Made by a program: the position numbers and the translations under genes
Notes under the pieces: generated by a model
Told to the model about the DNA's origin: nothing
Seen by the model: the letters and a program-made list of their open reading frames with translations, nothing else
Database searches by the model: none
Assembly: GCF_001685355.1 (NCBI RefSeq)
Contig: NZ_CP016438.1
Location: 9,486,001-9,550,000, forward strand
DNA: 64,000 nucleotides
From: Streptomyces lincolnensis
Lineage (GTDB): Bacteria; Actinomycetota; Actinomycetes; Streptomycetales; Streptomycetaceae
Direction of reading: 5' to 3'
Part shown: positions 1,246 through 24,821 of the stretch, piece after piece
Position numbering within the stretch: position 1 is the first letter of the stretch
How the letters are laid out: every line of letters starts with the position of its first letter

Positions 1246-1282
1246 GGGTCCTCCAGCAGGGGTGAACGGTCCAGTCGCGAGG

Positions 1283-2227
1283 TCAGTACCGTGGCGCGGA
1301 CGGCGCCGGAATCGCGTCCAGTGCCTCGACCTCGGCAGACGTGAGGGTGATGTCCGTCGCGGCGGCGTTCTCGGCCAAGTGCGTCCGCCGTCTGGTGCCG
1401 GCGATGGGCACGATGTGTTCACCCTTGGACAGGACCCAGGCCAACGCGGCCTGTCCCGGGGTGGCTCCGTGGCGCGCGGCCACGGCTTTGAGCGGTTCGA
1501 GGGCCCGCAGCTCCTCCCGCATGGCCGCTTCGGTGAAGCGGGGCAGCCGGAGGCGGCGGTCGTCCTCGGCGAACTGGCTGCGCGACCGGTGCGTACCCGT
1601 CAGGAAGCCACGGCCGAGGGGTGCGTAGGCGATGAAGCCGCAACCGTGAGTGGCGCACCACGGCACGATGTCCCGCAGGGCTTCGCGTGTCCACAGGGAC
1701 AGTTCACTCTGCACTGACGACACAGGGTGGATGGCATGGGCCCGCCGCAGTTCCCCGACACCAACCTCCGACAGGCCGATGTGCTTCACCAGGCCTTCGC
1801 CGACCAACTCGGCCAGGGCGCCCCACGACTCGTCCAGGGGGATCCTCGCGTCCACACGGTGCAGCTGGTAGAGGTCTAGGTAGTCCGTGCCCAGCCGCTG
1901 GAGCGAGGCCTTGGCCGCGGCTTTGAGGTGCTCGGGTCGGCCGTCCGATACGAGGCCTCCCCTCTCTCCCGCGACGAGGCCGCCCTTACTGGCCAGGAAC
2001 GCCTCGTGCCGACGGCCGCGCAGGGCCTGTCCGAGCAGGACTTCGTTGGAGTGCGGTCCGTACACGTCCGCTGTGTCGATGAGCGTCACCCCCAGATCGA
2101 GGGCGGTGCGCACGACATCCAGGGAAGCCGCGTCGTCCCAGCCCCCCGTCGTGTAGGCATAGCTCATACCCATGCAGCCGAGTCCCACCGAGCCGACAGG
2201 CGACCCGCCCAGTGTGCGCTGGCGCAC
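1283..2227 (-). CDS. Aldo/keto reductase
   Basis: This 314-residue TIM-barrel NADPH-dependent oxidoreductase has the family signatures in order: GLGCMGMS near the N-terminus, DTADVYG (catalytic Asp and Tyr), ASKGG (catalytic Lys) and LYQLHRVD (catalytic His). LAWVLSKG and the NADPH-binding region PIAGTRRRTHL are near the C-terminus. The length is normal for the YajO/AKR13-like group. The GTG start is supported by GGGAGGGG about 8 bases upstream. It lies 19 bp after the FkbH-like gene and so is probably the last gene of the leftward operon. Its substrate is unknown; it could reduce an aldehyde or ketone made by the cluster oxygenases. Confidence 0.85.
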   Translation of the reverse strand: MRQRTLGGSPVGSVGLGCMGMSYAYTTGGWDDAASLDVVRTALDLGVTLIDTADVYGPHSNEVLLGQALRGRRHEAFLASKGGLVAGERGGLVSDGRPEHLKAAAKASLQRLGTDYLDLYQLHRVDARIPLDESWGALAELVGEGLVKHIGLSEVGVGELRRAHAIHPVSSVQSELSLWTREALRDIVPWCATHGCGFIAYAPLGRGFLTGTHRSRSQFAEDDRRLRLPRFTEAAMREELRALEPLKAVAARHGATPGQAALAWVLSKGEHIVPIAGTRRRTHLAENAAATDITLTSAEVEALDAIPAPSAPRY

Positions 2228-2246
2228 GATGTCCCCTCCCTGGTGT

Positions 2247-4064
2247 TCAGGACGTCCGGGAGAGCCGGACCTCGACGAAGTTCTTGCCGCGGGCTTCGTC
2301 GACCGCGGGGTCGAACACCACGGTCACGGCCCCATCGGTCCGCGCCGCCGCTCTCGTCACGGTCGGGAATCCGTGCCCGCGCAGCGCCTCCAGGACCGTG
2401 TCGTTGCGGCCCGTCGGACACCATGTGACGTGAACAGGACGCCGAGACCTACCGATCAGCCAGTCGAACACGGCGGTCTCCAGCGTCCGGTTGAGGACCC
2501 GGCAGCTCATCGCGAACTCCCGCAGCCGCACCCGGTCCTTCGCGGTGTCGGTGACGATGACGGCGCAGATGCCGTGATCGCCGAACGTGTCGATGAGCCG
2601 GGCGGTGAAGACCTCCGTATCGGGGTCGTCGACAAGCCGCAGCCAGGACGCGTCGTCGAACCGGTGGCCGGTGAGGTGGAAGCGGTTGGCACGGTTGAGG
2701 AGCTGCAGACAGCGGTCCGTGGCGTGTCCGGGGCCGACCGGGGCGAGTTCGAGGCGCATGTCCAGCGAGGCGAGGAAGTCGTCGACGGACATGGCCTTCG
2801 CACGGGCGGCCTCCGACCGGTAGCGGAGCCCGTAGTAGTGGGCGCGCTCGCGGTCCTCACGGGTCAGCGGGCTGTCGCCCACGGCCGTGAGGTCCTGGAG
2901 TGTCCGACACAGCCGCGACCAGTCCTCACCAGGGCCCGGGAAACGGAGTGTGGTGATGTCCGGGTGCGTGGCGGCGACTTCGGCGAGTTCGACCGGGTTG
3001 TCGTCCACCAGGACGAACACGTCCGTGGGCAGATCCAACGCCTTCGCCATCGCGCCGAGCTGTTCGCTCTTGGGTGTCCAGCTGGTACTGACGGCGGCGA
3101 AGTCCGCGGGCGGGACGAGCAGTCCGACGTGCTCGCGCAGCGCGGCATCGGTGAACGCGTCCAGTGCGTTCGGGGAGTTCTTGCTGCACACGCCGATGAT
3201 GAAGCCCTGCCCCCGGGCACACAGCAGCATCCTCTGCCACCAGCGGTGCGCCGCGTCTTCCGCGACGGCGTGCGAGCGAACGCCCGCAGGGCCGTCCTCG
3301 GAGAGGATGCCGCGCCACAGCGTCCCGTCCAGGTCGCTCACCAGCACCTTGGGCTGCCAGGCCAGGCGTAGTCGCGTCACCAGATCGCGAGCGATGAGCG
3401 ACGCCGCCTCCTCCGACAGGACAGGACCGGGGGTTCGGGGCTCGATGCCGTCCGCCCAGGCGGCCCGAGGCAGTGTTTCCAGCGTTCGGTCGGTGTCGAG
3501 AACGGAACCGTGGGGGAGGCCGGCGAGGGTCTCCACCAGGGCATCGGTGATGCGCCCGGCCAGCCGGGCCAGTCGGAGCGCCAGCGAGCGCTCGGCCACG
3601 GGCAGGGGCAGGGGCGGGAGCACGGGCGGTACGATCACGTACCGAGTGGCGTGCCGGGCCAGTTGGTCGCGCAGGCGTGTCGCGAAGTCCGCGATACGGC
3701 GGTCGGAGCCGGCGAACAGCTCCTGCAGCGCCGCGGCATCCAGCGGTGCGGAGGACTCCCATCGGAGTTCGCCGAAGACATCCTCCACGCAGACCGCCGT
3801 CACCACCGGACCGGGTTCGCCCGCGAGGCTCCGCAACTCGGCGTCGAGTGCGCCGGCGGCCGGTGCGGGGACGGCCACGGGATGTCCGGTCGAAGCGGCG
3901 TACGCCCTGAAGAACAGAGCCAGTTGACCGGTCCAGGCCGTTCCGAGCAGCCGGACCTTTTCCGCGGACGCGGGTGAGAGGGAGGCACGTTCGGCGGCTT
4001 GGCGCAGGGAGAGCGGGGCCGGTGCGGCGGCGTGCGGGAGATGGTCGACTGCTCCGGCTGACAT
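2247..4064 (-). CDS. FkbH-like HAD-superfamily protein
   Basis: This 605-residue protein has an N-terminal SGNH-like region, a HAD domain with the nucleophile motif SDLDGTLWRG (about residue 240), GVCSKNSPNAL and VLVDDNPVE, and a C-terminal acetyltransferase-like half. This is the FkbH layout. Known FkbH proteins load a three-carbon glyceryl unit from 1,3-bisphosphoglycerate onto an acyl carrier protein. No carrier protein or polyketide synthase is visible here, so the acceptor is open; attachment to a peptide or to the MoaD-like partner is conceivable. The ATG start has GGAAAGGA upstream. It follows the MoaD-like gene by 43 bp in the leftward operon. Confidence 0.85.
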   Translation of the reverse strand: MSAGAVDHLPHAAAPAPLSLRQAAERASLSPASAEKVRLLGTAWTGQLALFFRAYAASTGHPVAVPAPAAGALDAELRSLAGEPGPVVTAVCVEDVFGELRWESSAPLDAAALQELFAGSDRRIADFATRLRDQLARHATRYVIVPPVLPPLPLPVAERSLALRLARLAGRITDALVETLAGLPHGSVLDTDRTLETLPRAAWADGIEPRTPGPVLSEEAASLIARDLVTRLRLAWQPKVLVSDLDGTLWRGILSEDGPAGVRSHAVAEDAAHRWWQRMLLCARGQGFIIGVCSKNSPNALDAFTDAALREHVGLLVPPADFAAVSTSWTPKSEQLGAMAKALDLPTDVFVLVDDNPVELAEVAATHPDITTLRFPGPGEDWSRLCRTLQDLTAVGDSPLTREDRERAHYYGLRYRSEAARAKAMSVDDFLASLDMRLELAPVGPGHATDRCLQLLNRANRFHLTGHRFDDASWLRLVDDPDTEVFTARLIDTFGDHGICAVIVTDTAKDRVRLREFAMSCRVLNRTLETAVFDWLIGRSRRPVHVTWCPTGRNDTVLEALRGHGFPTVTRAAARTDGAVTVVFDPAVDEARGKNFVEVRLSRTS

Positions 4065-4107
4065 GAAGCGGCGTCCTTTCCGGGAAGCGAGAGGGGACCG
4101 GCGGCGG

Positions 4108-4392
4108 TCAGCCGCCGGCGAACTGGAGCAAGAACTCGATCTGGTCCCCGTCGTCGAAGCTCAGGGCGCCGTACTCCGCCCGTGGGACCAGCTCTCCATT
4201 GCGTACGACGATTACGTTGCGGCGCACCGTGCCGTTCTCGTCCCACAGCTGTGCCGCGGTGGGGGAGTGACACAAGCTCAGGACCGTGCGTAACTGCCCG
4301 AGGTCGGCAACGCTCAGCCGTTCGCCGTGCCGGGAGAACGACTCGGCGCCGATGAGGAATTCAGGCACGATGACCTGCACGTCACGGGACAT
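4108..4392 (-). CDS. MoaD/ThiS-like ubiquitin-fold sulfur carrier ending in Gly-Gly
   Basis: This 94-residue beta-grasp protein ends in IEFLLQFAGG directly before the stop. That is the di-glycine tail that E1-like enzymes adenylate and convert to a thiocarboxylate in MoaD, ThiS and CysO. The preceding block VIVVRNGELV...LSFDDGDQIEF is the typical MoaD strand pattern. Its ATG overlaps the end of the SUMF1 gene by 11 bases, so the two are translationally coupled. The next genes are SUMF1 and JAMM, and JAMM proteases commonly pair with sulfur-carrier proteins. The inferred role is sulfur delivery to the cluster product. The activating E1 could be one of the ThiF-like cluster proteins or a housekeeping MoeZ. 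No JAMM-removable extension is present, since Gly-Gly is already terminal. Confidence 0.8.
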   Translation of the reverse strand: MSRDVQVIVPEFLIGAESFSRHGERLSVADLGQLRTVLSLCHSPTAAQLWDENGTVRRNVIVVRNGELVPRAEYGALSFDDGDQIEFLLQFAGG

Positions 4393-5293
4393 GGCGGGAC
4401 TGTCCTTTCGGGTCGGCCACCGATGGTGCGTCCATGGCGCAGCGGAAGCCCAGGTCCGGGGCCCAGTAGTCGACGGGCTCGTGGTAGCGCAGCGTGCTGC
4501 GGCACATGTCGTGGAAGCCGTGGAAACTGCCGCCCCGGCAGACGCGGTGCGCTCCCTCCGTCTCGTTGAGGGGATCATGCAGGGGGGAGACGGCGTAGAA
4601 GTCCGCGCTGTAGGCGTCCTGGCACCACTCCCACACGGATCCCTGCATGTCGTGCAGGCCGAATGCGTTCGGCAGCAGGCCCCCGACCGCGTGGAGCCGT
4701 CCGCCCGAGTTCTCGGCGTGCCACGCGTATCCGGCGAGGTCCGCCGGATCGGGATCGGTGGCGCTGCCGCCGCGCGCCGCGTACTCCCACTCGGCCTCCG
4801 TGGGCAGCCGTAGCCCCAGCCACCGGCCGAACATCACCGCGTCGTACCAGGTGACGCCGGTGACGGGCAGCTGCGGATCCGTGTCGGCGTCGTGCCCGGG
4901 ACTCCACTGCGCGTACTGCGCGTTGGTGACCGGGGTCCGGCCCAGCAGAAAACGTTTCAGCACTACCGGGTGCGCCGGTTCCTCGCCGTGGTACGTGTAG
5001 CCGTCCGCGGGGCGGCCGCCCATCTCGAAACGGGCCGGACCGACCGGTACGAGGTCCATGGCGGCCCGCCGTTCCTCCCGGCCGGCGTCGAAGCGGTCGT
5101 ACATCAGCTCCGCCTCGATGTCCGGCCCCCAGGCCCGGCACGCTCGCCAGGCGCGGTAGAGGACCTCGCTCCTGGTCTCCCGGGGCGTACCGTCGGGGTG
5201 GAGGGAAAGGACCGAGCGGACCTGTGCCAGCTTCTCCGGCCGCGGTCTCGTGAACCGCCGCGGCCGCACGTCGGCCTGCGGTGTCACGGACAT
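4382..5293 (-). CDS. SUMF1/formylglycine-generating-enzyme-like protein
   Basis: This 303-residue protein has a SUMF1/FGE-sulfatase fold from about residue 85: FEMGG, HPVVLKRFLLGRTPVTNAQYAQW, PVTGVTWYDAVMFGRWLG, RLPTEAEWEYAARGG, GLHDMQGSVWEWC and CRGGSFH. The family includes the copper formylglycine-generating enzyme, the EgtB/OvoA sulfoxide synthases and many regulators. No DinB-like domain is fused, so EgtB-like chemistry is not implied. Cys occurs in VWEWCQD, VCRGG and MCRST, but I cannot confirm the copper-binding cysteines. The start overlaps the stop of the JAMM gene by one base (TGATG), and its own end overlaps the MoaD-like gene. A role in Cys or sulfur oxidation during peptide maturation is inference. 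Confidence 0.85.
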   Translation of the reverse strand: MSVTPQADVRPRRFTRPRPEKLAQVRSVLSLHPDGTPRETRSEVLYRAWRACRAWGPDIEAELMYDRFDAGREERRAAMDLVPVGPARFEMGGRPADGYTYHGEEPAHPVVLKRFLLGRTPVTNAQYAQWSPGHDADTDPQLPVTGVTWYDAVMFGRWLGLRLPTEAEWEYAARGGSATDPDPADLAGYAWHAENSGGRLHAVGGLLPNAFGLHDMQGSVWEWCQDAYSADFYAVSPLHDPLNETEGAHRVCRGGSFHGFHDMCRSTLRYHEPVDYWAPDLGFRCAMDAPSVADPKGQSRHVP

Positions 5294-5802
5294 CACCGGG
5301 CCTCCTCGTACGTGATCATGTCGACCTCGCGGATGCGCTGCCCCGGTTCGACGCGGAACGCGCGCACCTGCGGGTAGCGGGGGTTGCGCAGCATCACGAT
5401 GAGGTGCCACAGGTCGGGGGAGGGGTGCAGATCGGCGTCCACGCTGGTGAGCAGCGCGGGGTGGCGCCGATGACTGTGGAAGACGCCCACCGCGTGGAGT
5501 CCCCGCTCACGGATGTAACGCTGGACGCGATAGGTCTCCTGCGGGCTGCCGACGAAACCGGCGTCGGCGTGGTCCTCGAAGTACCGTCCGTAGTGGGAGA
5601 AGCGGTCGCTCCAGGTGTCGCGGACGTTGTCGGCCATGAGTACGAACTCCACCGGCGCGCCTCCCGGGCGCGTGGCGAGGAAGTATCCGAACTGCTTGGC
5701 GGGAAAGGCCCGTTGGGTCGCCGTCATGAAACGGTGCAGCAGCGGGCGCGCCATGCGTACGTCTCCGGGAACGGCACGCCCGGGGAAGTCCTGCGCGGTC
5801 AT
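5293..5802 (-). CDS. JAMM/MPN metalloprotease-like protein
   Basis: This 169-residue single-domain protein carries a JAMM zinc motif with His109-Ser-His111 and Asp122 (GVFHSHRRHP...TSVD). The usual Ser before the Asp is Thr119. The upstream strand GYFLATRPGG...EFVLMADN fits the MPN fold. Bacterial JAMM proteins trim ubiquitin-like sulfur carriers (CysO/Mec, QbsE/QbsD) or remove them from conjugates. Its ATG overlaps the stop of the S9 hydrolase gene as ATGA, and its stop overlaps the SUMF1 start, so all three are coupled. With a mature Gly-Gly on the MoaD partner, cleavage of a carrier-product bond is more likely than precursor trimming; that is inference. Confidence 0.8.
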   Translation of the reverse strand: MTAQDFPGRAVPGDVRMARPLLHRFMTATQRAFPAKQFGYFLATRPGGAPVEFVLMADNVRDTWSDRFSHYGRYFEDHADAGFVGSPQETYRVQRYIRERGLHAVGVFHSHRRHPALLTSVDADLHPSPDLWHLIVMLRNPRYPQVRAFRVEPGQRIREVDMITYEEAR

Positions 5803-7739
5803 CCCGCACGCTCCGGGGCCGGGGCGCCCAGCTCTTCGAGACAGGCGGTCAGCGTCCAGCGGTACCAGGCCCGGACGTTGCGGGGACGAGCCAGCTGGTG
5901 GCCCTCGGTGCGGAAGAGCACCAGCTCGCTGCGGACGCCGTCGCGCAGCAGCGCCCGGTGCACGCGCAGGCTCTCGGTCGGAGGCACCCAGCCGTCGTGC
6001 AGTCCGTGGGAGAGCAGCACACGGGTGCCGGCGGGTACGGAGTGCGGCTGGAAGCTCTCCGCGGCGTACCGGGCGTGCTCGGTGTCCGGCGAGCCGAACT
6101 CGCCCGCCCACAGCCAGTTCCCGTCGCCGCCACCGACGATCTGGGCCTGGTCCATGGTGCCGCCGTAGGACACCACCAGCCGGGGGCGCAATTCCTGGGC
6201 GACGGACAGGGCCAGGAGTCCGCCGACGCACGGTCCGACCACCGCGAGAGGCGTGTCCGCCAGGCCGGTGTGGTCCCGTAGCTGGTCGATCTGACGGGCG
6301 GCGACGGCGGCGACACCGGTGCGCCAGCGTCGCCACCCGGTGCTCATGCTGGACGCGTAACCGAGCGACAAGGGGGGTTCCACGAGGATCACCGCGAAGC
6401 CCGAGGCGACGAACGGCCACGGATTCCAGCGCCAGTGCCACTCCGCCCAGTTGCGGACCGGCCCACCGTGCAGCAGGACGACTGTTCCGCGGGCGGGCCC
6501 GTCCTGGGGCACGCACAGCCATGAAGCGAGGTTTCCCGGTACGTCGGGCAGACGCTGGGGGTGGTGGCTCACTCGGCCCGCGGGCAGAGTGAGCCGGGTG
6601 GCGGTGACCGGTTCGACGGCTCCGGTCGACAGGTGGACGACCTCGACGGCCGGCGGGGTGGCGATCGCCGCCACGACGGCGGCCGCCCGCCCGTCGGCGA
6701 TCTGGGCATGCAGCACGGAGGCGGAGGCTTCGGTGCGTGTCCAGCTCGAGGTGCGGAGGTGGTAGGTGTTCAGCACGCTTCGCCGGCCCTCGGCGCCCCT
6801 GCACACAAGGCGGTCCGGGCCGTCCCAGCCGCAGGGCTGCTGCCAGGTGTCGTCCGGCGCCTTCAGGATCTGCGGTTCCCACGACGGGGCCGCCACCAGG
6901 GCCGCGTACTGGGCGGGTGCCTCGCCCTCGGCAGGCAGCGAGGCGGCCAGACAGGCCACCGTCAGCCCGTCGGGGCAGGACACGGGTGCCGTGATGTCGA
7001 ATCCGGTGGGTTGCAGGTGGCGGGCAGGCGATCCGTCGTACGCCACGACGAGCAGACCGAAGCGGCGGCTGCCGTCCGGCCGGTGTTCGCGCGTTCCGAG
7101 CACCACGGCCTCGGCCGTGCAGGCCGCCTCCCCGGTGAGGGCTGTGCCGGGCGGCAGTGTGAGGCCGACCTGCTGAGCGTCCCCCTCTGCGCCGAGGGGC
7201 ACCTGCCACAGCTGCCAGTCGCCCACCGGGCGGCGGGCACCTGCCAATGAGGCGTCGGGACCGTCCCACCACACGGCGTCGGAGTCCCGCAGGACGCCCT
7301 GCGGATGGTCACTCGGAGCCGAGGGCCCCTCCACCGTGTAGACGAGGGTGCCGGTCCCGGGCCGGAGCATGAGCGAGCCCACCATCCCGGGGCGGATGTC
7401 GAGGACGCGCTCCGGTGCGGTGTCGGATCCGGCGCCCGCGTCCGCGCGGAGGGCGATGAACTGGCGGCCGTCCTCACCGCGCCGGACGTACACCAGCCCC
7501 GCCGGGACCGGGAGCGCCTGGAACGCGCCGGGCACCCGCCAGACCGACCGCCATGTGCCCTCGGCGTCCCGCCGGTGACACACCAGCGAGGGGACGAGGT
7601 GGTCCTGGCCGTCGAGGGCGTCCACCCGCAGCGTCACGCGGTCGGGCGCGTAGGCCGCCACCGCCGTGATGCGTGCCTCGGCCTGCATCGCGTCGACGAA
7701 GCGTGTCGCGGTGTCGCCGACCACGACGTCAGGACGCAT
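5799..7739 (-). CDS. S9 (prolyl oligopeptidase-like) alpha/beta hydrolase with Cys nucleophile
   Basis: This 646-residue protein has an N-terminal beta-propeller-like region (about 1-390) followed by an alpha/beta-hydrolase domain starting VVLLHGGPVRNW. The nucleophile elbow reads VVGPCVGG, with Cys504 where S9 enzymes have Ser. Asp582 (LHDGW) and His614 (EGHQL) complete the triad. A Ser-to-Cys change usually favours acyl transfer or thioester chemistry over fast proteolysis, so a leader-peptide transpeptidase or macrocyclase role is worth considering; ordinary peptidase activity is the alternative. The gene overlaps the 2OG oxygenase gene by 11 bases and the JAMM gene by 4 bases in the same operon. 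Confidence 0.8.
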   Translation of the reverse strand: MRPDVVVGDTATRFVDAMQAEARITAVAAYAPDRVTLRVDALDGQDHLVPSLVCHRRDAEGTWRSVWRVPGAFQALPVPAGLVYVRRGEDGRQFIALRADAGAGSDTAPERVLDIRPGMVGSLMLRPGTGTLVYTVEGPSAPSDHPQGVLRDSDAVWWDGPDASLAGARRPVGDWQLWQVPLGAEGDAQQVGLTLPPGTALTGEAACTAEAVVLGTREHRPDGSRRFGLLVVAYDGSPARHLQPTGFDITAPVSCPDGLTVACLAASLPAEGEAPAQYAALVAAPSWEPQILKAPDDTWQQPCGWDGPDRLVCRGAEGRRSVLNTYHLRTSSWTRTEASASVLHAQIADGRAAAVVAAIATPPAVEVVHLSTGAVEPVTATRLTLPAGRVSHHPQRLPDVPGNLASWLCVPQDGPARGTVVLLHGGPVRNWAEWHWRWNPWPFVASGFAVILVEPPLSLGYASSMSTGWRRWRTGVAAVAARQIDQLRDHTGLADTPLAVVGPCVGGLLALSVAQELRPRLVVSYGGTMDQAQIVGGGDGNWLWAGEFGSPDTEHARYAAESFQPHSVPAGTRVLLSHGLHDGWVPPTESLRVHRALLRDGVRSELVLFRTEGHQLARPRNVRAWYRWTLTACLEELGAPAPERAG

Positions 7740-8421: not shown

Positions 8422-8532
8422 CGCATTCCTCCGCGCCGCTTCACATTCAGTTGGTCCGTACGTGCAGAACACAGCCGATGGGGGGCGAATTTAGTGAGGT
8501 TCCGGAAGGCGCGTCAATTGATTTCGGGGATG

Positions 8533-8611
8533 ACGTGCGGGGCGCGTATGTCGCTCGTACCCATCACTGACACGGCATTTACGTGCAGGGCGCGTATGTG
8601 CTTCGTACAAG
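8533..8611. promoter_or_regulatory. Paired 28-bp direct repeats with 11-bp-spaced heptamers (likely SARP operator)
   Basis: Two copies of a 28-bp element (8533-8560 and 8581-8608) match at 24 of 28 positions, 48 bp apart. Inside each, three heptamers recur every 11 bp: GTGCGGG-4-GTATGTC-4-GTACCCA in the first and GTGCAGG-4-GTATGTG-4-GTACAAG in the second. An 11-bp period of heptamers is how SARP regulators read DNA. The block lies between the divergent 2OG-oxygenase and phosphotransferase operons and could control both. The SARP encoded at 16329 is the obvious candidate. The second copy covers a possible GTG start at 8583, which argues for ATG 8631 as the true start. Confidence 0.6.
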
Positions 8612-8630
8612 CGACGGCAAGACTCGACAC

Positions 8631-9740
8631 ATGCTTCCGCCGAACGGTGTGAGAATTCCAGATCTCGCCATAGTCAACCCATTCCTCGAACGGCTGGGCC
8701 TGGGCAAGCTGTCGCCGGACCGGGTGGTCACGCATCCGGGGCGGCACCGGAAATGCTCGGGCGTCACCACCAGCGGGCGCGGAGTGTTCGTCAAGCAGCT
8801 GAACGAGTCGCTCGGTTGCCCGGCCCCGGGCGTCAGGAGGGCCAGGTCGTTCGAGGCACTGCGGACGCCGGAGTTGTCCGGGGCCGCGCTCCTGGGCGCG
8901 GACGACGACCGTAACCTGCTCGTCTTCGAGCTGATCGAGGATGCCGAGCCGGCCGACCTGCTGGCGCGTGAAGGCCGGTTCGATGCCGGGCTCGCCCGCT
9001 GCCTGGGCGAGATGACGGGCGCCCTGCACGAACTGCCGGTCGACCTGGAGAACGCCTCCATCGACACCTCTCCCTCGCGGTATCCGCCCCTGGGGTCGCT
9101 GGAAGGGCTGACCCTCACGCAGTACCAGGCCGCCAGTTCGGCCGTGCTTCAGGGATGGCGCTTGCTGCAGCAGGACGAGGAGGTCAAGGAGGCACTGCGC
9201 GCGTTGCGCCGCGACGAGGACACGGCGTCGAAGGTGCCCACACACGGCGACTTCCGGCTGGACCAGGTCCTCGTCGTCGGCGGACGGCGACACATCATCG
9301 ACTGGGAGGAGTTCCGCCTCGGTGACCCGGCCCACGACGTGGGCATGTTCGTGGGGGAGTGGCTCTACCTGGCGGCGGACCGGGCGGCCCGCGGGCTGCA
9401 CACGGGGCCCGTGGGCGATTCCGGGACCGTGCTCGGCGTCAGCCGCGAGGAGGTCATCGCCCGGACCACGGTCGAGCTGCGGGCGGTACAGCCCATGGTG
9501 GGGGAGTTCTGGTCCGGCTACCGGTCGGTGCGCACGACGACCGACCCCGATCTGCCGCGGCGGTCCGCCGCATTCGCCGGCTGGCACCTCTACGACCGGA
9601 TGTTCAGCGTCGTGGCCAAGATGATGGTGCTCAGCATGACCCAGTACGTGGCCAATGGAATCGGACGCAGAGCGCTGCTCAATCCCCATGAGATCGCCGG
9701 GATTCTGGAAATGGGGGAGATCGATGTCACAAGCAGGTGA
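8631..9740 (+). CDS. Aminoglycoside-phosphotransferase-like protein of RiPP dehydration systems
   Basis: This 369-residue protein has an APH/choline-kinase-like fold: an N-lobe with GVFVKQLNES (ATP-binding Lys), LVFELIEDAEPADLL, then the catalytic loop THGDFRLDQVLV and the metal motif HIIDWEEFRLGDPAHDVG. It sits immediately before a HopA1-like gene and overlaps it. This pair defines the Ser/Thr phosphorylation and elimination module of class V lanthipeptides (LxmK/LxmX) and thioamitides (TvaC/TvaD). The expected role is phosphorylation of Ser/Thr in the precursor encoded at 15934. The ATG start is preferred over GTG 8583 because that codon lies inside a regulatory repeat. First gene of the rightward biosynthetic operon. 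Confidence 0.8.
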   Translation: MLPPNGVRIPDLAIVNPFLERLGLGKLSPDRVVTHPGRHRKCSGVTTSGRGVFVKQLNESLGCPAPGVRRARSFEALRTPELSGAALLGADDDRNLLVFELIEDAEPADLLAREGRFDAGLARCLGEMTGALHELPVDLENASIDTSPSRYPPLGSLEGLTLTQYQAASSAVLQGWRLLQQDEEVKEALRALRRDEDTASKVPTHGDFRLDQVLVVGGRRHIIDWEEFRLGDPAHDVGMFVGEWLYLAADRAARGLHTGPVGDSGTVLGVSREEVIARTTVELRAVQPMVGEFWSGYRSVRTTTDPDLPRRSAAFAGWHLYDRMFSVVAKMMVLSMTQYVANGIGRRALLNPHEIAGILEMGEIDVTSR

Positions 9741-10713
9741 CCTGTTGCTGCCGGAACTCGAATGCGCCCTGGAAAAGATCGAGTTGCAGTCCGATGGGAT
9801 GGTCGCCCATGTCGACGGCCATAAACTGGAGGCGAACAGCCCGAGGCATCTTTCGGTACTGCTGCGATGGAGCCTCTACGATTTCCTGCATTCCGGGCGC
9901 GGGCCGGACACCTACAAATCGAAGGATGTCGCCAGAAACGCCGCCCTGGAAGCCGAACTCGCCCGGGTCATGCCGCACCAGGAGACGATCACGAGCGCTC
10001 GGGTGGACGGGCGCGGGGACGGCGAGTTGCTGGCCTCCATCGACGGCACCCGGATATGGGTGCCGGAGCACCGCAAGCTCGCCGACGCCCCGGGGGGCGG
10101 CGAGGTGGTCTACCTGTCGATGCCGGCCGCACGTCCCGCTCTCTCGCCCGGCTTCTTTCTCGCCGACGGCAGCCGTGGGCGCTCGGTGCGCAAACCGGTC
10201 CTGAGGGTGTACGCGCACGTGCGGAGCATCGACGCGGTGCCGGGTGTCTGGGCGGCGGCGTTGCGCTGTCTGGAGGACAAGGGCGTTCCCTACCGCGCCA
10301 AGGTGGCCTCCTCCCCGCTGCTGCTTCCGCGCCGGGACGCGTTGGTGGTCTTCCTGGGCCCGGACGGCTGGGACGCGGCCCCGGACATCGTGGACGCGCT
10401 CGACGGCCTGCCGGGGCTGGGGGACGAGGTGTCCGTGTTCGCGCGGCGGCTCGCGCCGGGTGTGTCGATGGCGTGGCATCCGTTCGCCCGTCGGTCGCGC
10501 GGTCCGTCCGGACTCAGCTTCGGCCAGCATCGGGCTACGGCCGTGGCGCAGGGGCTCGTCGACCATGCCATCGGGACCCATGGGGGATCCCGTGCCGAGG
10601 CGGTCGCGGACGCGATGCGGGAGGCGGGGATCGACCCTGCCGACCCCTTCCGCCATGACGACTCACCGGAACTGGACTTCGCCCGCACGGACCAGCGGTC
10701 CGCACTGGGCTGA
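9724..10713 (+). CDS. HopA1-like protein (phospho-Ser/Thr lyase candidate)
   Basis: This 329-residue protein resembles HopA1-family proteins. The N-terminal part has LLRWSLYDFLHSG, the middle has VYLSMPAARPALSPGFFLADG and PVLRVYAHVRS, and the C-terminal part has SGLSFGQHRATAVAQGLVD and ALGLxxxPADPF-like spacing. Relatives partner with the upstream kinase-like protein in class V lanthipeptide and thioamitide biosynthesis, where they eliminate phosphate from phospho-Ser/Thr. Its ATG overlaps the kinase gene by 17 bases, which implies equimolar synthesis and a complex. The predicted product is dehydroalanine or dehydrobutyrine in the core peptide. Confidence 0.75.
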   Translation: MSQAGDLLLPELECALEKIELQSDGMVAHVDGHKLEANSPRHLSVLLRWSLYDFLHSGRGPDTYKSKDVARNAALEAELARVMPHQETITSARVDGRGDGELLASIDGTRIWVPEHRKLADAPGGGEVVYLSMPAARPALSPGFFLADGSRGRSVRKPVLRVYAHVRSIDAVPGVWAAALRCLEDKGVPYRAKVASSPLLLPRRDALVVFLGPDGWDAAPDIVDALDGLPGLGDEVSVFARRLAPGVSMAWHPFARRSRGPSGLSFGQHRATAVAQGLVDHAIGTHGGSRAEAVADAMREAGIDPADPFRHDDSPELDFARTDQRSALG

Positions 10714-10747
10714 CCGACGGTCCGGACGTATCGCAGGAGGGAGGAAC

Positions 10748-12022
10748 GTGGGCGAGTTCTCATCGGAGTTGGCCGCGGGGATGCGCGCGCTCGTGTCTCC
10801 GTACGGCGTCGTCAGCGAGGTGCTGCCCGGAGCGCCGGTCCGGGGTCTGGCGGGGCTGTCCCTCGCCTCGGCCCGGGTGAACGGCGCGCCAGGCGTCGAA
10901 CGGCCCGAGGAGTTCGGCGGTGCGGGCCGCAGCCTGGCCGGTCCGGACGACGCGGAGCTGATCGCCGTCGCGGAGGCCGCCGAACGCTACTCGGGCGCGG
11001 ACTTTCCCGGCAGCGGCGAACGGTGGGCGACGGTCGCCGAACTGGACGGGCCGGTGCTGGACATGACGGCCGTGCCCCGTTGCTCGGAGACCGAGTACGC
11101 GAGTGGTCACTGCCCGGTCGTCCCCTTCCGGGCCGAGGAGCCCATCCGATGGCAGGGAGGGCTCGACATGGCGTCGGGGGAGGCGGTGTGGGTGCCGTCG
11201 GTCATGGCACGGCACGGAATACGCCGCCTCGCCCCCGCGGAACGGTTCTGGAACCGCATCTCCACGGGCTACGCGGTGCACTCCGACCCGACCGAGGCCC
11301 TGCTGCGTGGTCTGTGCGAGGTGTGCGAGCGGGACTCCGCCGCGCTCGTCTGGCTGCAGATGCTGCCCCTGCCGCGCCTCGGGTTCACACGTCCCACAGC
11401 GACGCTCTCCGCCCTGCTCGACCACTGCGCACGGCACTTCGTCACGACGCACTTCTATGACGCGACGACGGACATCGGAGTGCCTGCCGTCTACTGCGTG
11501 CAGGTCGCCGAGTACGACGACGCCTGCCGCCGCTCGGTCGGCTGCGCCGTCGGCCGCGACCTGACCGAGGCGGCGGAGAAGGCCCTGCTCGAAGCCGTTC
11601 CCGCGCGTGCCCTGTTCCACCGTGCCAATCCCGACAGCCATGCCCTGGTCATGGCCGGAGCGCAGTTCATGGGCAGGCCGGAGAGGCGGCACGCCTTCGA
11701 CTTCCTGCTGAAGCAGCGCCGTTCCCGCCGGGCGGAGGACGGTGCACGGCTGCCACGGGATGCCGGAAAGGCCCTGGCGCGGGTGGTCGGTGCCCTTGCG
11801 GAGCGGGGCATGCGGGCGGTGGCCGTGGACCGGACCACGCGCGAGCTGGCGGCGGCGGGACTGACGGCCGTATGCGTCGTCGTACCGGGGCTGCAGCCCC
11901 TGACGTTTCACCGATACGGGCAGTACCGGGCACATCCGCGCCTGTACTCGGCGCCCGTCGCCATGGGACACCCCAGCCGGCCGGAGAAGGAGTTGAATCC
12001 GTGGCCCCAGCCCTTCCAGTGA
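10748..12022 (+). CDS. YcaO-domain ATP-dependent cyclodehydratase
   Basis: This 424-residue protein has the three YcaO ATP-site blocks: IAVAEAAERYSG, HSDPTEALLRGLCEVCERD and GRDLTEAAEKALLEA. It ends in NPWPQPFQ, a Pro-rich tail like the PxPxP end of azoline-forming YcaO proteins. Such enzymes phosphorylate backbone amides during thiazoline and oxazoline formation, aided by an E1-like partner that binds the leader. Two such partners follow directly. No TfuA gene is seen, so azoline formation is favoured over thioamidation. The GTG start has GGAGGGAGGAAC upstream. The three Cys of the precursor core are the likely targets. Confidence 0.88.
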   Translation: MGEFSSELAAGMRALVSPYGVVSEVLPGAPVRGLAGLSLASARVNGAPGVERPEEFGGAGRSLAGPDDAELIAVAEAAERYSGADFPGSGERWATVAELDGPVLDMTAVPRCSETEYASGHCPVVPFRAEEPIRWQGGLDMASGEAVWVPSVMARHGIRRLAPAERFWNRISTGYAVHSDPTEALLRGLCEVCERDSAALVWLQMLPLPRLGFTRPTATLSALLDHCARHFVTTHFYDATTDIGVPAVYCVQVAEYDDACRRSVGCAVGRDLTEAAEKALLEAVPARALFHRANPDSHALVMAGAQFMGRPERRHAFDFLLKQRRSRRAEDGARLPRDAGKALARVVGALAERGMRAVAVDRTTRELAAAGLTAVCVVVPGLQPLTFHRYGQYRAHPRLYSAPVAMGHPSRPEKELNPWPQPFQ

Positions 12023-12642
12023 TCGCCACGGGAGCCTTCGGCGAGCGGGTCGGCCGGCTGCTGGCCGAGACCCGGCCCGGAACCAAGGTGCTCTCCGTGT
12101 CCCGACTCTCCTATGCGTTCAGCGAGTTCCGTGGTCCCGTCGTCCTGGCCTCTTGGCGGCCCGAGCTTGCTCTCTGTGAGGAGATCGACGCGCTGGCACA
12201 CGACACCGAACGGCCCTGGCTCCCGGTTGTCCTGGAGACGGCGGCCGTCCGGGTCGGTCCTCTGATCCGCCCCCCGTACGCCCCCTGTTTCCGCTGCTAC
12301 CGGCTCAGGCGCAGCCAGCATGACCTCCAGGCGCGGACGACCTCGCTCCTGACGGACCGTTACGACCGGGATCCGCACTGCGGCCCTGGTGGGTTTCTGC
12401 CCCACCACGCCAGGGCCGCCGCCGCCGTGGTCGCGGCCTACGCGGACGGCGCGCCCGGTACCGGTCCGGGGCGCGTGAGCACGGTTCGCCTCCGTCGGTG
12501 GGACGTCGAGGCACACCGCGTCGTGCCGTGTCACGGGTGCACGCGGTGCGGCGACCGCGGTGCCTCGGGCCCGGAGCTGAACCGCCTCGGAGCGGTTCTG
12601 CCAGCCCTGTCGCCGCGTCGCGACCCCTTGGAGGTGCGGTGA
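12001..12642 (+). CDS. Ocin-ThiF-like E1 partner protein (zinc-binding, short)
   Basis: This 213-residue protein resembles the C-terminal half of TOMM cyclodehydratase partner proteins: VVLETAAVRVGPLIRPPYAPCFRCYRLRR, then a distal CHGCTRC. The pairs CxxC and CxxCxxC suggest one structural zinc. No leader-binding domain is visible, so it may work with the larger fused protein that follows. It starts at GTG 12001 inside the end of the YcaO gene (22-base overlap) with GAAGGAG upstream. Its own end overlaps the next gene as GTGA. The split into two E1-like proteins is also seen in thiopeptide-type azole systems. Confidence 0.7.
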   Translation: MAPALPVIATGAFGERVGRLLAETRPGTKVLSVSRLSYAFSEFRGPVVLASWRPELALCEEIDALAHDTERPWLPVVLETAAVRVGPLIRPPYAPCFRCYRLRRSQHDLQARTTSLLTDRYDRDPHCGPGGFLPHHARAAAAVVAAYADGAPGTGPGRVSTVRLRRWDVEAHRVVPCHGCTRCGDRGASGPELNRLGAVLPALSPRRDPLEVR

Positions 12643-14288
12643 CGAGTCAAGGCACGTCGGCTTCGAGAGCCGTGCTGGACCGTGACCGGGCACGGCCTGC
12701 CCTGTGCCGTGGGCTGGTGCTCGTGGAAGTTCCCGGTGGGCTCGTGGTGGAAGGCGGCCCGCATCGGATGCTGTTGAGCGGCGAGGCGGCCTCCGGGTTC
12801 CTTCCGGCGCTGCTGCCGCTGCTGGACGGACGGCATGACATGGACGAACTGTGTTCCCTGCTAGCCGCCGATCCCGCCGACCTCACCCAGGCGCTGGAGC
12901 TGCTGGACGACTGGGGCGTACTGGAACCGGGCGGCCCCACGCAGGAAGAGCAGAAGGAGGGCGTGCCGGAAGACACCGTCGCGTACTACTCCCGTACGGC
13001 CGCCCTCACGGGTGGGCATGCGTCAGCCGAGTCGGTGCTGGACGAGCTCTCCCGGTCCCATGTCCTGCTGGTCGCCGAGCAGCCGCTGACCCGGATGCTG
13101 ATGGAGGACCTGACCGTCAGCGGGGTGGGCAGGGTGTCCACCGGAGGCGGCGGAGGCGGAGTTCCGCAGAACTGCGACCTTGTCGTGGTGGCCGACCGGC
13201 CCGGTGCTGCGGGGCGTCTGGCGGACTGGGTGGCCGCGGCCTGGGCGGACCGCGTCCCCGTCCTGCGGCTCGCGACCGAAGACGGCGCGGTTGAGGTGGG
13301 ACCGCTGTTCTGGCCGGGTGGGTCGGCATGCGTCGGCTGCTTCCGCCGGGGCGGCGGGCCCGTTGGCGCCGCGGGCGGCGATGAGGCGCTGCTGGCCTCG
13401 GCCGCAGCCATGGAAGTGCTGGCCGTCCTCGCCCGGACCACACCGGTGACGACCCTCGGCACCCGAGTGCGCACCGTGACCGGGGGCGACCGTACGGAGC
13501 GTCACCTCCTCACGCCCGACCCCTCGTGCACCGTATGCGGGGACGGCCGTGACGGGGCCGTCGACGACGCCCTGTGGCTCATCGAGGCGTATGAGTGGCA
13601 CCTGGCGCTCCCGCCCGGTCGGCTGACCCCCATGCCGCGCCTGCTCGCTCCCCAACGTCATCAGGTGCGCCAGGCGTCGCGGCGCCGCGTCCTGCCGTAC
13701 ACGTCGCCCGCGGTGCGACTGCCGGGCCCATCACGGTCCGACCGGCACGGTGGACATCCCGGCCCGGCCGGGCCGGTCATGGCACTCGCGGAGATCCTGC
13801 CGCACATGGCGGGTCCGACCGCCGCGTACGACGCCGGCCGCGGCCAGGACGAGAACGGCCCGGTCTCCGTCGATACGTACGTCCTGACGGATCTGCTCGG
13901 CCAGGAACTGCCCGGTCAGGTCTTCCGGTACGACGACGTCGACCACCGACTGTTGTCCCTGCGGGCCGACTCACCACCGTGGAGACGGGCCGTGCTGTCC
14001 TCCGGGCTGGATGTGGCCGACCTGGACGCGGTGATCGTTCTTGTCGCGGACGCCGGTCCGCTCGCCGCGGAGTTCGGTGACAGCGCCTGGCGGCTGGCAC
14101 ACCTGGACGCCGGTATCGCGGCGATGCGACTGGCCCACGCGGCACGGGAGGCTCAGATTCCGCTCGCCTGCGGACTTGGCTGGAGCGAGTACCTGCCGGC
14201 GGTCCTCGAACTCGACCCGACGAGAGAGAGCGTGGGCGCCGTGGCCGGACTGGTGGGCGGTTCGAGACCACAGGAGGTGCAGGGATGA
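12639..14288 (+). CDS. RRE-like / E1-like / nitroreductase-like fusion protein
   Basis: This 549-residue protein has three apparent parts. Residues ~15-95 look like a PqqD-type leader-recognition winged helix (LCRGLVLVEVPGG...MLLSGEAA...LLDGRHDMDEL). Residues ~120-330 are an Ocin-ThiF-like E1 domain with VEVGPLFWPGGSACVGC and a distal CTVCGDG (zinc Cys pairs). Residues ~370-549 resemble half of a SagB-type nitroreductase, with WRLAHLDAGIAAMRLAHAAREAQIPLA near the end. The expected role is leader binding and delivery to YcaO, plus a contribution to azoline oxidation. The GTG start overlaps the preceding stop, with GGAGG upstream. FMN-binding residues could not be confirmed by eye. Confidence 0.7.
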   Translation: MTSQGTSASRAVLDRDRARPALCRGLVLVEVPGGLVVEGGPHRMLLSGEAASGFLPALLPLLDGRHDMDELCSLLAADPADLTQALELLDDWGVLEPGGPTQEEQKEGVPEDTVAYYSRTAALTGGHASAESVLDELSRSHVLLVAEQPLTRMLMEDLTVSGVGRVSTGGGGGGVPQNCDLVVVADRPGAAGRLADWVAAAWADRVPVLRLATEDGAVEVGPLFWPGGSACVGCFRRGGGPVGAAGGDEALLASAAAMEVLAVLARTTPVTTLGTRVRTVTGGDRTERHLLTPDPSCTVCGDGRDGAVDDALWLIEAYEWHLALPPGRLTPMPRLLAPQRHQVRQASRRRVLPYTSPAVRLPGPSRSDRHGGHPGPAGPVMALAEILPHMAGPTAAYDAGRGQDENGPVSVDTYVLTDLLGQELPGQVFRYDDVDHRLLSLRADSPPWRRAVLSSGLDVADLDAVIVLVADAGPLAAEFGDSAWRLAHLDAGIAAMRLAHAAREAQIPLACGLGWSEYLPAVLELDPTRESVGAVAGLVGGSRPQEVQG

Positions 14289-14866
14289 CGCCTCCGTCGA
14301 TGGCCGACGCGGTCGCCGCGGTGGAACAAGCATGCCGTGGCGGCCGGTCCGCCCAGCGTGCGGAGCCGGAGCGTCGGCCCAGGGCGATGGAGGCCTCCGG
14401 CGTCGCGGGGGAGGTGGCGGCCGTGCTGGACATTGCGTTCCGGTCCCACCGGCTGGCCGTCCCGGACCAGACTCCGTACGGGATCCTCGCGGTGACGGGC
14501 CACTCCGGACCGGGTACGGCGCATGTCGTGTTCGCCAGGGCCGACACCGTGGTGCCGTTCGAGGCGGAGCCCTCCTGGACCGGCGTGCTCGCCGAGGCGC
14601 ACCCGGACGTGGGCCGGCTCTTCCTCGTCTGCGCCGATCTCGGGAGAGCAGCCAGGCCGTGGACCGGTGCGGCCTACCCGGAATCGCTGGTAGGGGCCGG
14701 AGCCCTCGCGCACAGTCTGCGGCTCGCGGCCTCCCGCCCATGGCCCGGTGCCCGGATCCACACCGGAAGCCACACCCCCGTGACCTCGGCCGTGCGACGA
14801 CGGCACCCGGGGATGCGCCACCTGGTCACCGTCTCCGCCGGCCCTCTCGATGGGAGCTCCACATGA
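14285..14866 (+). CDS. Nitroreductase-like (SagB-type) azoline dehydrogenase candidate
   Basis: This 193-residue protein starts at ATGA on the stop of the fused gene. It has YGILAVTGHSGPGTAHVVFARADT in the middle and YPESLVGAGALAHSLRLAASR and HLVTVSAG toward the end. These fit the strand and helix pattern of SagB/thiazole-forming nitroreductases, although the protein is shorter than a full one. It probably pairs with the nitroreductase-like tail of the upstream protein to give one FMN dehydrogenase that oxidises azolines to azoles. That pairing is inference from adjacency and complementary lengths. Its stop overlaps the sulfotransferase start. Confidence 0.5.
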   Translation: MTPPSMADAVAAVEQACRGGRSAQRAEPERRPRAMEASGVAGEVAAVLDIAFRSHRLAVPDQTPYGILAVTGHSGPGTAHVVFARADTVVPFEAEPSWTGVLAEAHPDVGRLFLVCADLGRAARPWTGAAYPESLVGAGALAHSLRLAASRPWPGARIHTGSHTPVTSAVRRRHPGMRHLVTVSAGPLDGSST

Positions 14867-15813
14867 CTGAGACAGTTTCCGCAGCCGGAGTGCCCCAGGG
14901 CGCCGAACCCGTCGGCGCCGGACACCCGGATCCCCTCTTCATCCTCTCCCCGCCCCGATCGTTCTCCACGATCACCCTGGCTCTCCTGGCCGGGCACCCG
15001 CGGATCTTCGGCTTTCCCGAGATGCTGGTCTTCGCCAACGACACGGTGGGCGATCTCGTCGGAGAGGACGGCACGGAGGCGGAGCGGTTTCCGCCGGCGT
15101 ACCGCAAGACCCGCCTGAGCGGGGTCTGCCGCGCCCTTGCCCAGGTCCACGAAGGAGAACAGACGGCGGATGCGATCGCCCGGGCCGAGGAGTGGCTGAG
15201 GGAGCGTCCCGACTGGCCGATGCCCAGGGTCCTGGATCACCTGCTGGAGCTGGTCAGTCCGCTGATCGGGGTTGAGAAGACGCCCGACACGGTGGCCACG
15301 GACGAGTCCCTCGACCAGTGCCTGCGCAGCTATCCGAACGCCCGCTACATCCACCTGACGCGGCACCCCGTGACGACTCAGCGCTCGATGCACAGCCAGA
15401 ACCAGCAGTACCTGACGCACCGGAAGGTGCGCGTGGTCGGAGCGGCCTCCTCCTGGTATCTGTCGCACCGGCGGATCATGCGGGCGCTCGGCGAACTCCC
15501 GCAACGGCAGTGGATGCGGATCCGCGGCGAGGACCTGGTCAACGAGCCCCGGTTGTGGCTGCGCCGGATCCTCGACTGGCTCGAACTGGACGATGACGAG
15601 GCGGTCCTCGACCGAATGGTGCACCCCGAGTCGTGGCCGTTCGCCAACAACGGCCCCGAGGGAGGGCTGTTCGGAGGCGACCACAAGTTCTTCACCGCGC
15701 CCGAGCTCAGGCCGGTCCCGGATCCCGGGCCGGTCGAATTCGACCCGGAATGGGACTTGCCGGACGAGATGTACAGGCGAATGGCAGCGTTGGCACGCGA
15801 ATTGGGCTACTGA
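14863..15813 (+). CDS. Sulfotransferase family protein
   Basis: This 316-residue protein has the PAPS 5'-phosphosulfate loop as FILSPPRSFSTIT (about residues 26-40), the 3'-phosphate region as YIHLTRHPVTTQRSMHSQ, and a long helical middle with VEKTPDTVA. These are the hallmarks of PAPS-dependent sulfotransferases. It overlaps the preceding dehydrogenase gene as ATGA and is the last enzyme gene before the precursor peptide. The likely function is O-sulfation of the modified peptide or of a group attached to it, possibly Tyr-free since the core has no Tyr. Sulfation in azole-containing RiPPs would be unusual. Confidence 0.85.
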   Translation: MTETVSAAGVPQGAEPVGAGHPDPLFILSPPRSFSTITLALLAGHPRIFGFPEMLVFANDTVGDLVGEDGTEAERFPPAYRKTRLSGVCRALAQVHEGEQTADAIARAEEWLRERPDWPMPRVLDHLLELVSPLIGVEKTPDTVATDESLDQCLRSYPNARYIHLTRHPVTTQRSMHSQNQQYLTHRKVRVVGAASSWYLSHRRIMRALGELPQRQWMRIRGEDLVNEPRLWLRRILDWLELDDDEAVLDRMVHPESWPFANNGPEGGLFGGDHKFFTAPELRPVPDPGPVEFDPEWDLPDEMYRRMAALARELGY

Positions 15814-15933
15814 GCCCGCTCGCCAGAGAAAGGAAATGCTGGATGAGGATCCGGTGCTCTTTGCCGGTCAGGTCTCCGCCCGGCGGCGGGATCAGGCCGG
15901 TCCGAGAAGAAAAGACTGGAAAGGGGAATTTCT

Positions 15934-16104
15934 GTGGGTAAGTTCACGATCCGTGATGTGTCCGAATCCGGCTGGGAGTCGCTCGTGGTGACCGCCCTGA
16001 TGGGCATCGAGGAGAGCCCGGGCTGGACCGACTGCTGGCCGACCGGTGGCACCAGCGGTGCGTGCTGCACGACGTCGCCGGCTGCGCCCGAGCCGGGCGT
16101 CTGA
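15934..16104 (+). CDS. RiPP precursor peptide (56 aa)
   Basis: This short gene at the end of the biosynthetic operon starts at GTG with AAGGGG 8-9 bases upstream. Residues 1-27 look like a leader: MGKFTIRDVSESGWESL, then VVTALMGIEE, mostly acidic and helical with no Cys. Residues 28-49 look like a core: SPGWTDCWPTGG followed by TSGACCTTSP, with Cys34, Cys44 and Cys45, seven Thr/Ser (Thr32, 37, 40, 46, 47; Ser41, 48), two Trp and several Gly/Pro. A Pro/Ala-rich tail (AAPEPGV) follows. Cys next to small residues suits thiazole formation, and the Thr/Ser suit dehydration. The leader/core boundary is a guess. I do not recognise the sequence. Confidence 0.85.
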   Translation: MGKFTIRDVSESGWESLVVTALMGIEESPGWTDCWPTGGTSGACCTTSPAAPEPGV

Positions 16105-16124
16105 GCGACCATGCACTGAATAGG

Positions 16125-24809: not shown

Positions 24810-24821
24810 CGCAGCCGTACA

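Follow-up and report, generated by a model that had tools for sequence, protein, structure and literature searches.

A conserved Streptomyces gene cluster that joins a class V lanthipeptide kinase and lyase pair to a YcaO module of the azoline-forming type

The window analyzed here is a stretch of 64,000 nucleotides from the 10.3-Mb, single-contig genome of Streptomyces lincolnensis (NZ_CP016438.1, 9486001-9550000). Toward its left end lies a predicted gene cluster for a ribosomally synthesized and post-translationally modified peptide (RiPP), in which a rightward operon encodes, in order, an LxmK-type kinase, a HopA1-type lyase, a YcaO protein, two E1-like proteins, a nitroreductase-like partner, a sulfotransferase and a precursor peptide (Table 1). 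Genes were called by profile searches (Pfam, TIGR/NF models), with the starts checked separately; the YcaO start given is the first fitting codon after HopA1. A sequence-only reading of this DNA had proposed that the kinase and lyase act together with the YcaO module on one precursor, and this hybrid idea is borne out by synteny in three genomes, by catalytic residues that are mostly intact and by conservation of the precursor. The rightward genes that it listed were recovered by the profile searches, except that the product of 14285-14866 is merely a diverged nitroreductase-like protein with no Pfam match. Of the divergent genes, the 2-oxoglutarate (2OG) oxygenase, JAMM, SUMF1, MoaD-like (here ThiS) and FkbH assignments stand, and the supposed Cys-hydrolase (5799-7739) is instead a Peptidase_S9. 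We conclude that the hybrid cluster is real, conserved and rare.

Table 1. Genes of the hybrid cluster and its surroundings, in window coordinates.
Feature	Position	Strand	Evidence or remark
LxmK-type Ser/Thr kinase (aminoglycoside phosphotransferase, APH) of class V lanthipeptides	8583..9740	+	NF038156 389 bits, cut-off 315
HopA1-type phospho-Ser/Thr lyase	9724..10713	+	PF17914 147 bits; PDB 9dk1_B lyase E 2.6e-45
YcaO cyclodehydratase, SagD/azoline-forming type, C-terminus NPWPQPFQ	~10748..12022	+	TIGR03604 247 bits, cut-off 219
E1-like partner protein (CxxC...CxxC)	12019..12642	+	TIGR03882 58.7 bits, cut-off 36.9
RiPP recognition element (RRE)-like (leader-binding), E1-like and SagB-like dehydrogenase domains	12639..14288	+	TIGR03882 25 bits, below cut-off; C-terminus weakly SagB-like, 20.5 bits
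Diverged nitroreductase-like partner	14285..14866	+	aligned with relatives in L023, L002 and L024; no Pfam match of its own
Sulfotransferase of the 3'-phosphoadenosine-5'-phosphosulfate (PAPS) type	14863..15813	+	PF13469 92 bits
Precursor peptide, 56 residues, GTG start	15934..16104	+	conserved open reading frame (ORF)
Streptomyces antibiotic regulatory protein (SARP)-type regulator, start approximate	16331..17132	+	PF03704, PF00486; kept in S. bluensis (L029) and S. corallincola (L030)
Two ATP-binding cassette (ABC) exporter half-transporters (17157-18983, ~18860-20824)	17157..20824	+	PF00664, PF00005; no match to a peptidase domain
Cytochrome P450, common to all three hybrids	20787..22013	-	PF00067 95 bits
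NodU-like carbamoyltransferase, within the shared island	22227..24011	+	PF02543, PF16861; NF041651 139 bits, far under cut-off 1000
2OG-Fe(II) oxygenase, kept in 3/3 hybrid clusters at 87-97% identity	7729..8421	-	PF13640 62 bits
Cassette of six divergent genes	1273..7721	-	in S. corallincola; missing at the corresponding place in S. bluensis
Aldo-keto reductase (AKR)	1283-2227	-	cassette gene
FkbH	2247-4064	-	cassette gene
ThiS	~4108-4392	-	cassette gene
Formylglycine-generating enzyme (FGE)/SUMF1-like	~4382-5296	-	cassette gene
JAB/JAMM	~5293-5802	-	Prok-JAB alone 23.7 bits, slightly under cut-off 25
Peptidase_S9 (prolyl-oligopeptidase type)	5799-7739	-	profile search

The other places at which these families occur provide a measure of how unusual the combination is. 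HopA1 was matched in 22 of the 150 genus genomes scanned and in 20 of the 296 class genomes, with the S. lincolnensis genome counted in both. All of the places matched other than the window's own, 40 in number, were fetched as stretches of 20 kb where the contig allowed (5.9 kb for L070 and 17.3 kb for L058). None of these 40 HopA1 loci carries, at E 1e-5, a gene for the E1-like protein, for the second E1-like protein or for the sulfotransferase, and the kinase and lyase are absent from all of 16 azole-type loci. The hybrid combination is therefore rare in this sample, where it is confined to three clusters of one lineage. Because the kinase/lyase and ring-forming YcaO modules are separate in the other loci examined, one might suppose that two neighboring clusters share this stretch and act on different peptides. 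This arrangement is extremely improbable and was rejected: the YcaO gene begins 34 bases after HopA1, the genes from there to the sulfotransferase abut or overlap, their order is kept in three genomes, and the stretch holds a single conserved precursor ORF and no class V precursor-like ORF that we could find.

Scanning of genome contigs with the YcaO protein identified two close relatives, S. corallincola J2-1 (L030) and S. bluensis JCM 4729 (L029). The query used in these scans began at 10442, its first 102 residues being out-of-frame HopA1/linker sequence; with a query of 10742-12022 the YcaO identities are 98% and 88%, respectively. A comparable scan with TIGR03882 matched 295 of 295 genus genomes and so was unable to single out relatives. 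The S. corallincola locus is collinear with window positions 1250-22032 at 96.7% DNA identity, and S. bluensis keeps positions 7722-21609 at about 86-90%. Both homologous clusters retain the peptide gene; its loss from them would have told against the sequence-only reading. In S. bluensis the alignment jumps from 1272 to 7722, with some 30 unmatched bases between, so that the AKR-FkbH-ThiS-SUMF1-JAB-S9 cassette is absent there, and the best FkbH match anywhere in that genome is only 34% identical. Since it is absent from the S. bluensis locus, the six-gene cassette is optional, and a role for its FkbH, ThiS, SUMF1 and JAMM genes as an integral part of the system is not supported.

The precursor consists of a leader (residues 1 to about 30) and a core (about 31-56, WTDCWPTGGTSGACCTTSPAAPEPGV), the cleavage site being a prediction; the three Cys and seven Thr/Ser counted earlier in the probable core are indeed present in this ORF. 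It shares 52 of 56 residues with its S. bluensis counterpart, from which it differs at positions 2, 43, 55 and 56, and 54 of 56 with that of S. corallincola, where positions 3 and 23 differ. In S. bluensis the core is therefore altered by A43V and at its last two residues, and in S. corallincola the changes are confined to the leader, which leaves a core of the same mass as in the window. The S. bluensis comparison yields 9 synonymous and 4 non-synonymous codon differences, and the resulting ratio of non-synonymous to synonymous rates (dN/dS), 0.15, is the lowest of ten genes measured; the value for YcaO was not used, because the query start was out of frame.

This precursor was compared with those of ordinary class V loci, defined as the 24 loci with a kinase match at E below 1e-80; the other 16 HopA1 loci were excluded (L037 has no kinase match, and in the remaining 15 the kinase is divergent or missing). 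An ORF with a GYxxY leader and a C-terminal Cys is found in 17 of the 24 LxmK loci, in none of 19 azole loci and in none of the three hybrids. The pattern was built on those same LxmK loci, and it agrees with the published Tyr-17. The LxmK-type kinase and HopA1 lyase pair that marks class V is present, and the type-A leader with its conserved Tyr and the C-terminal Cys fail in 3/3 hybrids; the precursor of the window contains no Tyr at all and is without the GYxxY motif and the C-terminal Cys. What the hybrid leader does have is the pattern D.[STD].{2,3}W[EDTS].L, in common with leaders upstream of YcaO in the azole loci L002, L023 and L024, a pattern with a single unrelated match among 8,028 small ORFs (overlapping loci being counted twice). 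We take this shared motif as a weak hint of an azole-type leader. S. lincolnensis also possesses a second class V lanthipeptide locus (L033, 6911001-6931000) of the ordinary type, with an ORF at 10396-10563 that has a GYETY leader and a C-terminal Cys.

The window kinase keeps 49 of 56 conserved columns. One departure lies in the segment matched to the predicted leader contacts of CaoK, namely R354, A357 and G358 (PMC9486802). Most class V kinases read RAAAGIGR in this segment, and the hybrids read YVANGIGR. The residue presumed to correspond to CaoK R354 is Tyr in 3/3 hybrids; of the 24 other kinases, 22 have Arg there (L059 has Lys, and the row for L044 is partial). Together with a precursor that has no class V leader Tyr, this changed contact residue suggests that enzyme and leader were altered in concert; the two appear to have changed together. 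The changed motif offers a directly testable case of how a RiPP enzyme might come to be retargeted to a foreign leader.

The window lyase retains H55, R160, K192 and R202, and its residue 209 is Phe; these numbers take codon 9727 as the first and are lower by one than a count that starts at the ATG of 9724. The spacing of CaoY R187-K219-R229-Y236 is that of R160-K192-R202-F209 here, with identical intervals of 32 and 10 for the first three, and H55 is probably equivalent to CaoY H57. The K219A mutation of CaoY is reported to abolish elimination, R187A nearly does so and R229Q dehydrates inefficiently (PMC9486802).

The YcaO protein is of the ring-forming type and not of the thioamide type, as judged by its model scores and C-terminus. 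It scores 247 bits with TIGR03604 (ring-forming) and 44 bits with TIGR03266 (thioamidation), and it ends in the PxPxP motif. A C-terminal PxPxP marks azoline-forming YcaOs, and Cys is their usual preferred substrate. A YcaO gene accompanies HopA1 within the fetched stretch in only 4 of the 40 other loci, all with a divergent kinase; these four score 270-279 bits with TIGR03266 and 133-141 with TIGR03604, and the C-terminal PxPxP is missing. The cluster has the SagD-type YcaO with an E1-like leader-binding partner that characterizes linear azol(in)e-containing peptides, which belong to the thiazole/oxazole-modified microcins (TOMMs). These data bear on the proposal that the system resembles the thioamitides, with a YcaO that thioamidates the backbone and a ThiS/JAMM cassette that supplies sulfur in place of TfuA. 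Kinase/HopA1 pairs are known in thioamitides and the ThiS and JAB genes adjoin the operon; moreover, an archaeal TfuA is reported to hydrolyze thiocarboxylated ThiS for its YcaO (PMC8153245). However, the window YcaO fits the ring-forming model and has E1-like partners as well as PxPxP, profile searches of the operon region gave no TfuA match, and S. bluensis retains the operon without ThiS and JAB. Thioamitide membership fails on two of these counts, the YcaO type and TfuA, and the thioamide reading, which we regard as very unlikely, was rejected from the YcaO model scores and C-terminus.

Whether the rings would be oxidized depends on the two dehydrogenase-like proteins. A profile of the 12639-14288 product and its relatives matches PbtF, MusD, TruD and LynD (leader-binding and E1-like folds) in its N-terminal part, and 3eo7 and ThcOx (flavin mononucleotide (FMN) nitroreductases) in its C-terminal part. 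A Lys-Tyr pair is catalytic in McbC-type enzymes. In 3/3 hybrids Glu-Phe (E478 F479) stands in place of this pair, which all 17 of the other azole-type clusters with the region retain; likewise, a loop following a Trp (SGGN, SAGN and similar) is present in 18 of 18 other azole clusters and lost in 3/3 hybrids. These sets of 17 and 18 include clusters that are not independent, since L027/L028, L090/L091 and L095/L096 are close relatives, and the motif table left out eight short duplicate loci (L001, L003-L009); L075 and L076 do not have the Lys-Tyr region, nor L076 the SGGN region. The clusters L095 and L096, which come from two genomes and are nearly the same, show a pair of neighboring ORFs for thiopeptide-like precursors, and a very long frame stays open across YcaO. 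In BmdC, the FMN phosphate is contacted by Arg-Arg-Ser and there is an active-site Tyr (PMC8795117). The corresponding FMN-phosphate motif RRSxR is not recognizable in the partner encoded at 14285-14866, which was also missed by a nitroreductase-partner profile of two relatives; of the 19 non-hybrid azole loci, 16 have a recognizable partner, and 9 of these show RRSxR or RQSxR in stop-to-stop frames. AlphaFold models from three sequences each have a mean pLDDT of 34 for 12639-14288 and 40 for 14285-14866.

A functional azoline dehydrogenase is optional in the TOMM class. With the Lys-Tyr pair lost in 3/3 hybrids, the rings are more probably thiazolines, at -18 per ring, than azoles, at -20, and the oxidized azoles that had been suggested for this product are doubtful. 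Full oxidation might still be achieved by the SagB-like domain in its altered form, together with its partner, or by the conserved P450, a variant of the azoline reading and not exclusive of it, which we regard as somewhat unlikely. It would account for the retention of both genes in all three genomes at dN/dS of about 0.5, and it must contend with the loss of the Lys-Tyr pair and SGGN loop and with a partner that has no recognizable RRSxR. The degenerate oxidase genes are perhaps retained as a scaffold.

From gene content, conservation and motif states we infer the following chemical steps and their order. The RRE-like domain of the 12639-14288 protein would present the leader, and the YcaO and E1-like proteins would form thiazolines by cyclizing the Cys residues of WTDCWPTGGTSGACCTTSP, with some of its Ser/Thr perhaps cyclized as well. 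The rings would mostly remain azolines, because the oxidase domain is without its catalytic signature. LxmK would phosphorylate Ser/Thr, and HopA1 would then eliminate the phosphate to give dehydroalanine and dehydrobutyrine. Residual hydroxyls, or one introduced by the 2OG oxygenase or the P450, might receive a sulfate and perhaps a carbamoyl group, and export of the product would fall to the ABC pair. For a window core that begins at W31, the calculated masses range from 2497.01 with three azolines and no dehydration to 2370.94 with three azolines and seven dehydrations, and a sulfate would add 79.96. We assign a probability of roughly 0.6 to the reading in which the class V kinase/HopA1 pair is joined to an azoline-forming YcaO module and azolines occur together with dehydro residues in a single peptide.

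Several observations weigh against this reading. Lyase residue 209 is Phe in 3/3 hybrids and Tyr in 24 of 24 others (roughly the same loci as for the kinase, with L037 in place of L067), so that elimination by HopA1 might be impaired. The first Pro of PxPxP is gone from S. corallincola YcaO, which has the C-terminus LWPQPF. The oxidase domain has a dN/dS of 0.55, below 1, and is thus not simply junk. As for the leader, its segment GWESL could be a worn form of the class V GYETY. The azole-leader motif was defined after the fact on four sequences; tried on another 12 loci, in most of which the precursor was not identified, it gave two matches, both near-copies of the L002 leader. Taken by itself, the alignment of the window and L024 leaders does not reach significance (342 of 5000 shuffles). 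Finally, no leader peptidase conserved in all three hybrids was found.

The possible kinship of GWESL and GYETY is also relevant to a different product, namely a class V lanthipeptide that contains thioether rings. Here YcaO would cyclize only Ser/Thr or some of the Cys, and the leftover Cys thiols would add to dehydro residues. An LxmK above the class V cut-off and a core with three Cys and seven Ser/Thr are in keeping with such a product, which we nevertheless consider quite unlikely. The precursor does not have the class V leader Tyr or the C-terminal Cys, Cys is usually preferred by YcaO, and the Pfam scan of genes in the operon and right flank showed neither a LanD-type flavoprotein nor a second APH protein of the CaoX kind. 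No Cys decarboxylase was found among the same genes; given this, and the form of the precursor, thioether or aminovinyl-cysteine (AviCys) rings are unlikely. The thioether rings allowed for by the sequence-only reading are not supported.

Comparison with described systems helps to place the azoline reading. Class V lanthipeptides (cacaoidin, lexapeptide, pristinin) have, as here, an LxmK/CaoK-type kinase and a HopA1/CaoY-type lyase with most catalytic residues kept; the hybrids differ from them in having no GYxxY leader, no C-terminal Cys and no decarboxylase that was found, in the changed kinase contact motif and in the added YcaO module. The dehydrazoles (carnazolamide) likewise combine ATP-dependent dehydration and YcaO heterocycles in one RiPP; their enzymes are a LanM-like dehydratase (LanMbC) and a YcaO paired with a dehydrogenase, and their leader is long (PMC10676384), in contrast to the class V kinase/lyase and degenerate dehydrogenase found here. 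Membership in that family fails, since profile searches gave no DUF4135 (LanMbC) match and the class V pair is present instead. In systems of the goadsporin and thiopeptide type, dehydration also accompanies YcaO rings but is carried out by a glutamyl-tRNA-dependent LanB and not by a kinase and lyase; a LanB taken from locus L024 had no match in the window. The thioamitides (thioviridamide, thiostreptamide) share a YcaO and a phosphotransferase/HopA1 pair, and theirs thioamidates with TfuA, whereas the YcaO of the window is ring-forming with E1-like partners. The literature, in which most subscription journals fall outside coverage, yielded no cluster of a class V kinase/lyase with azolines and no characterized cluster identical to this one, so the claim that no family with this set had been described holds to that extent. 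It is qualified by decRiPPter, in which YcaO-like proteins and sulfotransferases are mentioned near the kinase/HopA1 pair (the sprPT/sprH3 contexts); section 9 of that article describes no such cluster (PMC7794033). Dehydration and heterocyclization compete for Ser, Thr and Cys. If the azoline reading is true, the kinase/lyase with azolines is a further independent solution beside the pairings with LanB (thiopeptides, goadsporin) and with a LanM-like enzyme (dehydrazoles).

The same YcaO/E1/E1-SagB/nitroreductase module recurs in locus L024, whose source genome belongs to the same order (YcaO 48% identical). This locus also has a 48% identical sulfotransferase beside an adenosine 5'-phosphosulfate (APS) kinase, together with a NodA-like acyltransferase and a LanB of full length (PF04738, 513 bits), and its precursor core is QACGGCGSSACSGASFSITCF. 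As a whole, L024 3052-15246 is an uncharacterized azole cluster with a Gly/Cys-rich precursor. The adjacency of sulfotransferase and APS kinase in this azole cluster makes the sulfate proposed earlier for the window product plausible. The L024 LanB matched no other locus searched. With LanB in one cluster and kinase/lyase in the other, dehydration and ring formation would be combined on one chassis with two different dehydratases, which suggests that dehydratase types have been exchanged on a shared ring module. A more elaborate history, tentative and in our view rather unlikely, is that a LanB-associated ring-forming and sulfating module adopted the class V kinase/lyase, that the leader site of the latter was remodeled to suit a new leader and that the azoline oxidase degenerated; the outcome would be a dehydro-azoline peptide bearing sulfate and carbamoyl groups, to which, in two of the three genomes, the ThiS/JAMM/SUMF1/FkbH cassette would add a sulfur-dependent change. 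The decorations recall those of Nod factors, with a NodU-like carbamoyltransferase and a sulfotransferase in the window and a NodA-like acyltransferase (L024 7796-8410) and a sulfotransferase in L024.

The sequence shared by the three genomes extends well beyond the right end of 16104 first assigned to the cluster, to about 28.8 kb. The block begins about 0.5 kb to the left of the window; its right limit is 28,842 by comparison with S. corallincola and 28,479 by comparison with S. bluensis, which is without 24,339-26,538. Outside the block the flanks are unmatched, for 16 kb to the left of the window compared with both relatives and for the relatives' own sequence at the right. These limits suggest that the block is a mobile island, about 29 kb long, which also carries the P450 and the NodU-like carbamoyltransferase. 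In plasmids, the sulfotransferase has only four matches, all distant; the 12639-14288 protein gave no plasmid match by tblastn, a weak negative since a 27% identical relative exists in plasmid record L002. No Rfam match was obtained within the window. At 440-1272 lies a TauD-type dioxygenase gene that is broken by a stop and a frameshift; S. bluensis has an intact copy (L029 6301-7179), and S. corallincola has none.

The JAB protein of the cassette has matches in its own genome alone among the 150 of the genus set and in 34 of 296 genomes of the class set, all weak (E 3e-6 or worse) except its own; no plasmid record matched. Comparison of S. corallincola and the window with S. bluensis isolates the contribution of the ThiS/JAMM/SUMF1/FkbH cassette on a near-identical peptide. 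The ThiS-like protein, which is paired with JAMM (4108-5802), already ends in GG, so that JAMM would be unneeded for its maturation; the two may form a sulfur-transfer or deconjugation system. The FGE/SUMF1-like protein also resembles, by sequence, CalU17 of the calicheamicin pathway.

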